Of a DNA stretch of 57,905 bases, positions 35,881-37,648 are shown one piece after another (the stretch's first letter is position 1; every line of letters begins with the position of its first letter). Source of the stretch: an uncultured Prevotellaceae bacterium (GTDB lineage: Bacteria > Bacteroidota > Bacteroidia > Bacteroidales > Muribaculaceae); NCBI GenBank assembly GCA_900320245.1, contig ONRP01000013.1, positions 1 through 57,905 of the forward strand, given 5' to 3'. The notes under the pieces are model-generated. The model was not told the origin of the DNA. It searched no databases and saw nothing but the letters and a program-made list of their open reading frames with translations. Both the position numbers and the translations under genes were made by a program.

Positions 35881-35997
35881 ACAAGAAGCACAACAAGTGC
35901 AAGCCATGCGGTGTGAAGCCGTAGTTAAAGACAACTCAAACAACTCGAACAACTTAGAAATAATAAAGTTGTAAAAGTTGTTTGAGTTGTCTTTAAT
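35881..35997. repeat. Palindromic repeat with perfect 21-bp arms
   Basis: A member of the ACAAGAAA family (starts ACAAGAAGCACAACAAG). Arms 35925-35945 and 35976-35996 are perfect inverted repeats of 21 bp (TTAAAGACAACTCAAACAAC plus T). Inner 7-bp arms ACAACTT / AAGTTGT add to the stem. It is the best-preserved copy in the window. The rest of the gap 35846-36245 holds the SatD promoter and palindromes. Confidence 0.85.
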
Positions 35998-36089
35998 CAC
36001 AGCAATGCGGATGCCATAGCACTTGTTGTATTAGTTTTAGCCATATTTGCCGTTGGGGGTGTTGTTGATGTGAAATAATTGTTGATTTA

Positions 36090-36121
36090 TTTGTGGGGTA
36101 ACCATTCTTTGACTATCTTTG
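36090..36121 (+). promoter_or_regulatory. Bacteroidetes-type promoter for SatD/DUF3307 operon
   Basis: TTTG (36090-36093), 20 bp, TATCTTTG (36114-36121), a full consensus match. Transcription would start near 36128, giving a leader of about 118 nt that contains the three palindromes. Confidence 0.8.
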
Positions 36122-36133
36122 CATTCCGTAAAG

Positions 36134-36211
36134 AGTAAGTCCTGACGCTTACTATGGCCAAAAGTAAGCCATGGCGCTTACTCGAGGCGGAAGTAAGCCG
36201 TTACGCTTACT
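36134..36211. promoter_or_regulatory. Three 20-bp palindromes at exact 29-bp spacing
   Basis: AGTAAGTCCTGACGCTTACT (36134-36153), AGTAAGCCATGGCGCTTACT (36163-36182) and AGTAAGCCGTTACGCTTACT (36192-36211). Each has 7-bp inverted arms (AGTAAGC/GCTTACT, one wobble in the first) around 6 variable bases. Start-to-start distance is 29 bp both times, and the 9-bp spacers are unrelated. They lie between the likely transcription start and the SatD start codon. They could be operator sites for a dimeric regulator or three small hairpins in the leader RNA. Confidence 0.85.
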
Positions 36212-36245
36212 ATTGGTAGTGTGCCACAATAATAAAACGTTTTGT

Positions 36246-36914
36246 ATGATAATGAAGAAATATGCTGCAATATCGGCTGACATTGTCGCTTCGACCTCAT
36301 TGTCCCGCGAGGCCTTGATCAGGCTGACGGGAGGGCTGAAAGCCTTGCTTGACCGTGCTGCCCGTGACTATCAGGGATTCTGGGGGCGCCTGGTCAAGGG
36401 CGACACCATCGAGTGTGTGATGGCCCGTCCTGGCGATGCCCTTCGTGTTGCGCTGCTGCTCAAGTCTTATATCAAGTCGTTCGCGCCGACCGACGGCATT
36501 GCCGATGCCAAGTTCAAGCAGTTCGGCCTGCGCCTGGCGATAGGCGTGGGCGAGATGCGCATCATTGACAAGTCGCTCGACATGATGGATGGCGAGGCCA
36601 TCTACCTGTCGGGCCGCGCCCTGTCTGATATGCGTGACAAGACGAGCGACAGTTTCCAGATTGTCATGGCCGATGATGTGAGCCATGGAGCCTTGGCGGT
36701 CGTCTTGTCGCTGCTCAACCAGTTGATTAACAGGGCGACTCGTCGTCAGTGCGAAACCCTGTACATCAGGTTGCTCAGCAAGGACGATGCCGAGACGGCC
36801 AAGAAGATGGGCATTTCGCGCCCTGGCGTGAACCAGAATCTGCGTAATATGGGTTGGGATGCCATCGAGCGCTCCTTGAAGTATTTTGAACAACTTAACT
36901 TTGAAGGAGAATGA
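36246..36914 (+). CDS. SatD-family protein
   Basis: SatD-like protein of 222 aa, probably cytoplasmic, biochemical role unknown. SatD was named from the acid-tolerance locus of Streptococcus mutans. The start is ATG at 36246 (MIMKKYAAISADIVAST), or the second ATG at 36252. An in-frame ATG at 36171 lies inside the palindrome array and is rejected. The N-terminal part (about 1-150) has YAAISADIVAST, RLVKGDTIECVM and RLAIGVGEM, resembling the nucleotidyl-cyclase-like fold noted for this family, which is tentative. The C-terminus (about 180-222) is helix-turn-helix-like: DDAETAKKMGISRPGVNQNLR. The stop overlaps the next start by 4 bp. Confidence 0.85.
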   Translation: MIMKKYAAISADIVASTSLSREALIRLTGGLKALLDRAARDYQGFWGRLVKGDTIECVMARPGDALRVALLLKSYIKSFAPTDGIADAKFKQFGLRLAIGVGEMRIIDKSLDMMDGEAIYLSGRALSDMRDKTSDSFQIVMADDVSHGALAVVLSLLNQLINRATRRQCETLYIRLLSKDDAETAKKMGISRPGVNQNLRNMGWDAIERSLKYFEQLNFEGE

Positions 36915-37648
36915 GCCAACTGTTCTGGAATCTGCTGCTCGCTCATGTGATAGGCGACTTTTATTGCCAGACGGGGCGTTCCTGCTCCGGCAAGCGGGAG
37001 CAGGGCCTGCTGGGCATCGACCTCTATGTGCATGCGTTCATCATCCTGGTGCTCTCATGGGCAGTGACGTGGTCATGGGCCTTCTGGTGGGGTGCTCTGG
37101 TCATCGGCGTGGTGCATCTGTTCATTGATGCCGGCAAGGCCGCTGTCGAGCGCACGCTCAAGGTGGGCGGTGAACCTATCTACAGGACGCGCTATGCCGT
37201 GTGGCCGTTTGTCGTGGACCAGTTGCTGCACATCGCGCTGATTGCCGTGGTGGCATGGTGGTGGCAGCGCTATAACGATTGGAGCCAGTTGGAATGGGTC
37301 AATGACGGCTGGCTGATGATGGCCATGGCACTGCTGTTGTGCTGGAAGCCGGCCAACCTGTTGACGAAGCACATCCTGCGTTACTGCCAGGTGAAAATAC
37401 TGCAGGACCAACCCGAACAGACCACCTTCAAGAGCGGTGCCCTCATCGGCACGCTCGAGCGCTGGCTGATTGTGTTCTTCATGTTCCTGCAGCAGTACGA
37501 AGCCATCGGATTCCTGGTCGCCGCCAAGTCGATTCTGCGCTTCAGCGAGACCAAGGAGAGCGAGAAATCAGAGTATGTGCTGGCGGGCACGCTGGTGAGC
37601 ATCGCCATTGCCGTTGCATGCGGCATTCTGGTGCTTGCCACCCGATAA
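36911..37648 (+). CDS. DUF3307 membrane protein, partner of SatD
   Basis: Multi-pass membrane protein of 245 aa, function unknown. It starts with the ATGA overlap with SatD, so the two are translationally coupled. The family signature LLLAHVIGDFYCQTGRSC...KREQGLLGIDLYVHAFII is at the N-terminus, followed by VVHLFIDAGKAAVE, and about five to six hydrophobic helices are visible. DUF3307 proteins are commonly encoded next to SatD. The pair may form a membrane sensor with a DNA-binding or nucleotide-binding partner, but that is inference. Confidence 0.87.
   Translation: MSQLFWNLLLAHVIGDFYCQTGRSCSGKREQGLLGIDLYVHAFIILVLSWAVTWSWAFWWGALVIGVVHLFIDAGKAAVERTLKVGGEPIYRTRYAVWPFVVDQLLHIALIAVVAWWWQRYNDWSQLEWVNDGWLMMAMALLLCWKPANLLTKHILRYCQVKILQDQPEQTTFKSGALIGTLERWLIVFFMFLQQYEAIGFLVAAKSILRFSETKESEKSEYVLAGTLVSIAIAVACGILVLATR

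Follow-up and report, generated by a model that had tools for sequence, protein, structure and literature searches.

A fixed-spacing array of tandem palindromes as the predicted operator of SatD–DUF3307 operons

The operon and its palindromes

The question raised by this locus is what three evenly spaced palindromes do ahead of a two-gene operon encoding a SatD-like and a DUF3307 protein, and which protein reads them. The locus lies in a stretch of 57,905 nucleotides from an uncultured Prevotellaceae bacterium (contig ONRP01000013.1), which was analysed as a whole and is hereafter called the window. Its features are as follows:

36090..36093, + strand: -33 promoter element TTTG, Bacteroidota type (from sequence)
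36114..36121, + strand: -7 promoter element TATCTTTG (from sequence), identical in the relative L067
36134..36153, + strand: dyad 1, AGTAAGT-cctgac-GCTTACT (from sequence), 6 of 7 arm pairs, the seventh being T·G
36163..36182, + strand: dyad 2, AGTAAGC-catggc-GCTTACT (from sequence), 7 of 7 arm pairs
36192..36211, + strand: dyad 3, AGTAAGC-cgttac-GCTTACT (from sequence), 7 of 7 arm pairs
36252..36914, + strand: satD-like gene (ATG at 36252, stop ending at 36914), cyclase-like N-terminal domain and C-terminal helix-turn-helix (HTH)
36911..37648, + strand: gene for a DUF3307-domain membrane protein (Pfam), overlapping satD by 4 bp
37436..37612, + strand: C-terminal part of the DUF3307 protein (IGxxER..AAKSxxRF..EYxLxGTxxS), where conservation is highest

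The sequence-only reading had reported three 20-bp palindromes with 7-bp arms and an exact 29-bp period; size, period and the starts at 36134, 36163 and 36192 are confirmed, and the 7-bp arms hold for dyads 2 and 3 and not strictly for dyad 1 (6/7 pairs). The promoter previously placed ahead of them is likewise recognisable, since the elements at 36090–36093 and 36114–36121 agree with the presumed Bacteroidota -33/-7 consensus; the first dyad starts 12 bp past the -7 element. The best dyad pair scores 28, whereas 5000 dinucleotide shuffles of a 300-bp leader stretch give no more than 22 (0/5000 reach 24), and symmetric sites are thus found beyond chance at the operon's own promoter. In the 3.02-Mb genome the exact AGTAAG-N8-CTTACT pattern is limited to these three sites, and allowing one mismatch in the 6-N8-6 pattern adds two further places. 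Because the exact pattern is confined to the satD leader in its own genome, we rejected the possibility that it represents the site of a global regulator.

Further information comes from the Muribaculaceae MAG Tb.RUG.166 (L067), the SatD-like protein of which is 97% identical to that of the window. From promoter to start codon the two loci differ by seven changes, the promoter itself being identical: four changes affect the centres of dyads, one a spacer, one the sequence just past dyad 3 and one an arm, the last rendering dyad 1 perfect (7/7 pairs). This distribution fits selection on the arms, in numbers that are small. The earlier proposal of such selection, as opposed to a fresh duplication, is in keeping with the window dyads, which keep their arms while centres and spacers differ, and with the pattern in L067.

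The assignment of the second protein to DUF3307 is secure (PF11750, 77.2 bits vs a cut-off of 23, residues 4–120), as is the 4-bp overlap described before (satD stop ending at 36914, DUF3307 ATG at 36911). The name SatD, instead, is valid at the level of the family and not for the window protein itself: the latter has no Pfam SatD match at E ≤ 1 and does not reach the curated cut-off of PF16264, which is matched at E ≤ 0.01 by 20 of its 71 aligned relatives, so that we consider it a distant branch of the superfamily. At positions 3–105 the family profile matches 3mr7, the structure of an adenylate/guanylate cyclase (E 1.4e-4); weaker matches towards the C terminus are to the HTH of sigma-28 (E 0.004) and that of GerE (E 0.016), in agreement with the C-terminal HTH that had been noticed in SatD and which spans residues 181–198 or thereabouts of the window protein. 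Five residues (D10, G50, D51, G114 and G121) are invariant in 71/71 relatives, with D10 and D51 lying at positions that presumably resemble those of the metal ligands of class III cyclases. These cyclases carry a V-N-x-A-x-R motif with a transition-state Asn. By the correspondence that we drew by eye, this Asn is not kept in the SatD family, residue 118 being Tyr in 39/71 and otherwise mixed. SatD may thus resemble class III cyclases in the fold profile of its N-terminal part and in two invariant aspartates, but differs from them in the HTH fused at its C terminus and in the lack of conservation at residue 118. One SatD-like protein (L007, 1501–2982; 494 aa) has a long C-terminal extension that by eye is TPR-like at first.

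Neither window protein has a PADLOC match at E ≤ 0.1, so that membership of a known defence family was discarded; the relative L012 gives only weak Cas7c matches (E 0.013 and above). PADLOC was also run on 85 of 140 flanking proteins, for which the best 25 of 152 families comprise type I specificity subunits, PbeA-like (3) and mads-like (2) proteins. A satD–DUF3307 pair on a Sphingomonas insulae plasmid (L179, 2250–3639) lies beside a gene annotated as Pycsar system effector family and also neighbours one annotated as E2 domain-associated cysteine-rich protein. A viral association was discarded too: the viral contigs and phage records searched contain no relative of satD, and DUF3307 has no match in the phage records at E ≤ 0.001. 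In the literature searched, as far as the accessible text goes, DUF3307 appears only as an annotation, for one gene of a Ralstonia phage (PMC8504454).

Array geometry among satD-like loci

A set of 144 satD-like input sequences, including repeated copies of the same place, was reduced to 142 that gave a start and 141 that had at least 200 bp upstream, from which removal of near-duplicates left 103 non-redundant loci. Arrays were defined as tandem 7-N6-7 dyads with a score of at least 22 and a spacing of 28–30 or 56–60 bp within the 300 bp upstream. Such arrays precede 81/103 satD-like genes, as compared with 5/1152 other 300-bp segments of the same loci, and a tandem dyad pair within 300 bp upstream is significant at p ≤ 0.05 in 89/103 (100 shuffles each). 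The spacing in these 89 loci is 29 bp in 61, 28 bp in nine, 57–59 bp in 12 and different in seven. Three dyads are the commonest array size (53/90 loci), with none extracted in 13.

Three of the five control matches are arrays at the satD/DUF3307 junction (L037, L054 and L057), and in L037 and L057 the 3' end of satD extends into the first dyad; in all three loci satD closely follows another gene. The fourth is a second, two-dyad array after the DUF3307 gene of L119 (3862–3910), with arms like those of the upstream array and ahead of a gene resembling, by eye, methionyl-tRNA formyltransferase; the fifth, within the satD gene of L009, looks like chance. No upstream array at a score of at least 22 was found in 18/103 loci, including the three with junction arrays and three without a DUF3307-like gene (L017, L028 and L041), which leaves twelve unaccounted for.

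Outside the order, arrays are present at p ≤ 0.05 in 14 of 29 curated PF16264 loci, nine of them at exactly 29 bp, a count that overstates independence because L174, L175, L177 and L178 are among near-identical loci; the remaining 15/29 have no array at this level (the set originally had 30 loci, L165 being dropped for want of a start). The spacing recurs in 8/12 plasmid records examined, including two near-duplicate pairs: it is 28 bp in Vibrio, Pseudoalteromonas, Sphingomonas and Agrobacterium and 29 bp in three haloarchaea, with no array in the records from Salinivibrio, Sphingomonas insulae, Segatella and Fusobacterium. These 12 derive from 15 matches, as H10, H12 and H13, all from Agrobacterium and equal to H11 in identity and score, were left out. 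A DNA search of plasmids with L149 as query gave no match. Two haloarchaeal plasmid records carry an annotated SatD family gene followed by an annotated DUF3307.

The check originally suggested, namely a search for AGTAAG-N8-CTTACT upstream of satD in relatives, consequently has a divided outcome: the geometry recurs (81/103 loci) and the AGTAAG lettering is local, being limited to the window genome, its 97%-identical relative, in part L008 and two loci devoid of satD (L202 and L203). Arms across loci include the types AGTAAG, AACAAG, TATAAG, TATCGG, TATAACC, TATAGCC, TATCTA, AACAACC and GTTGAT. On the strength of these comparisons, the conserved feature is the geometry of the array, not its lettering. 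A neutral tandem duplication or a functionless mobile repeat might account for the likeness of arms among copies within one locus, but scarcely deserves credence: arms are kept where centres and spacers differ, no other exact copies are present in the window's own genome and identical spacing with unrelated arms across phyla is impossible to obtain from one repeat. Instead, the same spacing with differing lettering in bacteria and archaea suggests a widespread gene switch that would be read by the protein of the first gene.

Arm sequences, the SatD helix and the DUF3307 partner

If SatD reads the array, the arms would be expected to vary with its recognition helix. They do sort with it as a tendency: helices with VNQHS go with AAGY, VNQRS or INQRK with AAGG, VSGRW or VSGRY with ATCGTT, VRNVL with CAAYC and VNSRA with ATCTA. 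The relation is not one-to-one, for VNQHS or INQHS occurs also with ATCGG (L033, L058 and L116), TAGG (L051) and AAGA (L039). In 83 of 85 arrays (two proteins were too short), arm distance correlates with HTH distance at 0.50 and with N-domain distance at 0.44. When the N domain is controlled for, the HTH retains a partial correlation of 0.28; when the HTH is controlled for, the N domain retains one of 0.05. For a few loci, L018, L042, L144 and L148 among them, the arm register is off by a few bases, which contributes noise. The operator sequence is found to vary with the regulator's helix by permutation also, with a p of 0.001 that is only indicative because permutation ignores phylogeny.

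We then asked which nearest partner, that by helix or that by N domain, has the closer arms when partners are restricted by N-domain distance. Over the same 83 loci, the helix wins by 44 vs 17 at N-domain distances of at least 0.45 and by 52 vs 25 at 0.55 or more, an advantage that shrinks to 44 vs 32 at 0.62 or more. The arms thus appear to follow the recognition helix of SatD better than the rest of the protein. That a regulator other than SatD reads the arrays would be compatible with the moderate partial correlation (0.28) and with the arrays of L202, L203, L185 and L196, at which satD was not found. We judge this very improbable, given that the arms hardly vary with the N domain once the HTH is accounted for, and that a single alternative regulator is unlikely for a spacing found beside a gene pair common to bacteria and archaea.

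The gene following satD is DUF3307-like in 90/103 loci and in 25/29 curated loci; with a wider look and broken genes allowed, these values rise to 96/103 (adding L007, L035, L050, L054, L057 and L065) and 27/29 (adding L160 and L171). The partner of L007 lies about 380 bases past its satD-like gene. Seven of the 103 are without partner: three end with their contig (L067, L122 and L123), three have a different next gene and no array (L017, L028 and L041), and the last, L008, has array and satD with no DUF3307-like gene even in the longer 5.65-kb stretch L084. Since the partner is present in 96/103 and 27/29 loci, the array usually goes with a membrane-protein gene, L008 being the exception. Together with the junction arrays of L037, L054 and L057, which point to this gene as the target, the comparison makes the membrane-protein gene look to be the usual target of the array. 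Conservation of the partner peaks at G180, E183, K206 and R210 (113/115), outside the part to which the Pfam model aligns (residues 4–120 of the window protein). The short partners of L207–L209 align with the C-terminal half of the profile alone (from position 122, 126 or 128 to 230 of 236).

Regulation, decay and significance of the operon

The position of the array relative to the promoter bears on whether it works as DNA or as RNA. A promoter of the form TTG-N17–22-TAnnTTTG lies within reach of 50 of 85 arrays and is absent from the other 35. Among these 50 loci, some of which are close relatives, the array lies upstream of the -7 element in 30, contains it in nine, abuts the promoter in six, has candidates on both sides in one and sits in the leader in four, the window included; its place in the L006 group is immediately downstream of the -7 element.

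The alternative first put forward, three RNA hairpins in the leader that control translation or termination of the operon, is consequently disfavoured, because 30/50 arrays would not be transcribed from their promoter. We consider it quite improbable, although the window array does lie downstream of the presumed start site and its leader has a more stable computed fold than shuffled sequences (-37.5 kcal/mol, z -2.5). The best fold pairs the arms of dyad 1 with those of dyad 3 and does not form three hairpins, the arms track a DNA-binding helix and, on the + strand, the dyads are free of Rfam matches up to E 1. Among mismatches within the dyads, G·T is somewhat more frequent than A·C (77 vs 52; loci 34 vs 20), a comparison that gave no clear separation of RNA from DNA. 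A DNA operator, as deduced from these positions, would explain every array placement, which an RNA leader does not.

Membership of an RNA family was also discarded, all Rfam matches being below gathering scores: one weak match, to SECIS_4 (E 0.24), lies on the opposite strand and extends as far as dyad 1, and the remaining ones fall on a separate hairpin at 35916–36013. There, between the TPR gene and the satD promoter, lies an inverted repeat (35918–36003) with 38-nt arms, 84% complementarity and a 10-nt loop; the corresponding stretch of L067 reads differently.

Our main reading, to which we assign a probability of roughly 0.84, is that dimers of a SatD-type regulator with cyclase fold and HTH occupy the array cooperatively and thereby govern the operon, the membrane-protein gene being the usual target. 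Each dyad would bind one SatD dimer via the C-terminal HTH, and neighbouring dimers would bind cooperatively, their protein–protein contacts setting the 28–29-bp step. Such a step corresponds to 2.7–2.8 helical turns at 10.5 bp per turn and neighbouring dimers would therefore be rotated around the helix; its being fixed suggests that they touch each other. The N-terminal cyclase-like domain would dimerise and may sense a nucleotide or metal ligand. The window array begins just after the promoter, which suggests repression: its occupancy would block transcription and keep both satD and the membrane protein repressed until a signal releases SatD. Activation or occlusion of the -33 element is possible at other loci, where the position of the promoter varies.

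That SatD uses the same operator chiefly to activate the DUF3307 gene is a serious though unlikely alternative. The 30/50 arrays upstream of the -7 element and those directly before the DUF3307 gene in L037, L054 and L057 speak for it; against it are the arrays of the window and L067, placed between promoter and gene, and that of the L006 group. Moreover, satD of Streptococcus pyogenes, present in 178/249 genomes, is reported as the one accessory gene whose essentiality score falls in the top quarter (PMC11323703), which would make more sense if SatD repressed a harmful partner. With regard to the sequence-only reading, its SatD-read operator is strongly supported by comparison, considering the fixed spacing, the helix-following arms and the position tied to the operon. 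Its model of autoregulation survives as a predicted SatD operator, corrected in that AGTAAG is local and that the membrane-protein gene is the likely usual target.

Matches of satD-like type occur in 21/101 genomes of the genus and, at E ≤ 0.001, in 59/295 of the order, where 47 of the matched places score more than 100 bits; this seems to be an accessory operon that is often lost, although some genomes are incomplete and its absence from them is less than certain. In L035, L050, L057, L065 and L160 the satD frame is open and the partner is shortened or split, in all of these except L057 appearing as two open frames or lacking its middle. At the place between the TPR and RlmD genes, two genomes of the same genus have no satD: G385 (L203, 1500–1808) retains two dyads, a degenerate third and a 67-aa ORF keeping only the C-terminal end of DUF3307, and G363 (L202, 1500–1550) retains two dyads alone. 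In another genus, G083 (L185, 1298–1800) has an array followed by a DUF3307 tail, between what by eye are two copies of the start of a gene like that of a type I restriction R subunit. Finally, G156 (L196, 1500–1545), in which satD was not found, has two TATAAGC-N6-ACTTATA dyads (29 bp, 6/7 pairs each) between genes that by eye are antiporter-like and galE-like, neither of which turned up in the stretches around satD in G254, a member of the same genus.

Searching by motif first gave 17 places in 13/295 genomes of the order, as compared with three places for the reversed control. Eight of the 13 genomes have adjacent satD, one a DUF3307 tail and one the array alone (L196), and the matches L184, L191 and L192 look like chance. 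Within the genus, motif matches occur in 4/101 genomes: G000 and G338 with satD, G385 with the DUF3307 tail and G363 with the array alone.

The literature searched, as far as its text was accessible, offers no molecular mechanism or operator for satD/DUF3307 and no match for a SatD with operator and DNA-binding function. SatD, named from the sat operon of Streptococcus mutans (as cited in PMC11323703), has been described by acid tolerance (PMC10326533); the accessible parts of these papers deal with acid tolerance and with essentiality and mention neither an operator nor binding to DNA. A known parallel is found in autoregulated operons with palindromic operators such as the Xre-RES toxin–antitoxin system, in which an operon-encoded DNA-binding protein also goes with a palindromic repeat at its own promoter and a secondary binding site has been suggested (PMC12204516). 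SatD differs from it in having a tandem array of 28–29 bp with diversifying arms and a cyclase-like domain in place of the antitoxin, the toxicity of the membrane partner being only putative. Indirect hints of such toxicity may be seen in the S. pyogenes essentiality (PMC11323703), in the broken or shortened partner genes of L035, L050, L057, L065 and L160 and in the DUF3307 tails of L185 and L203.

We tentatively propose, as a possibility that we hold at clearly less than even odds, that SatD–DUF3307 is a horizontally spread module common to both domains, in which a cyclase-fold sensor-repressor would restrain a potentially harmful membrane effector via a cooperative array of fixed geometry, rewritten along with the recognition helix. 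The effector would break first in decay, because loss of SatD alone would be deleterious if the proposal is true, leaving the array behind; helix and arms would form a readable code. The many natural protein–site pairs provide material for reading a recognition code, and the fixed geometry of the operator gives ready-made probes for each locus. That such an array stands ahead of the pair in Bacteroidota, in Pseudomonadota and in haloarchaea makes it probable that SatD-type proteins are regulators that bind DNA. The operator may also bear on the essentiality of satD in S. pyogenes, which a repressor of a harmful partner would explain.
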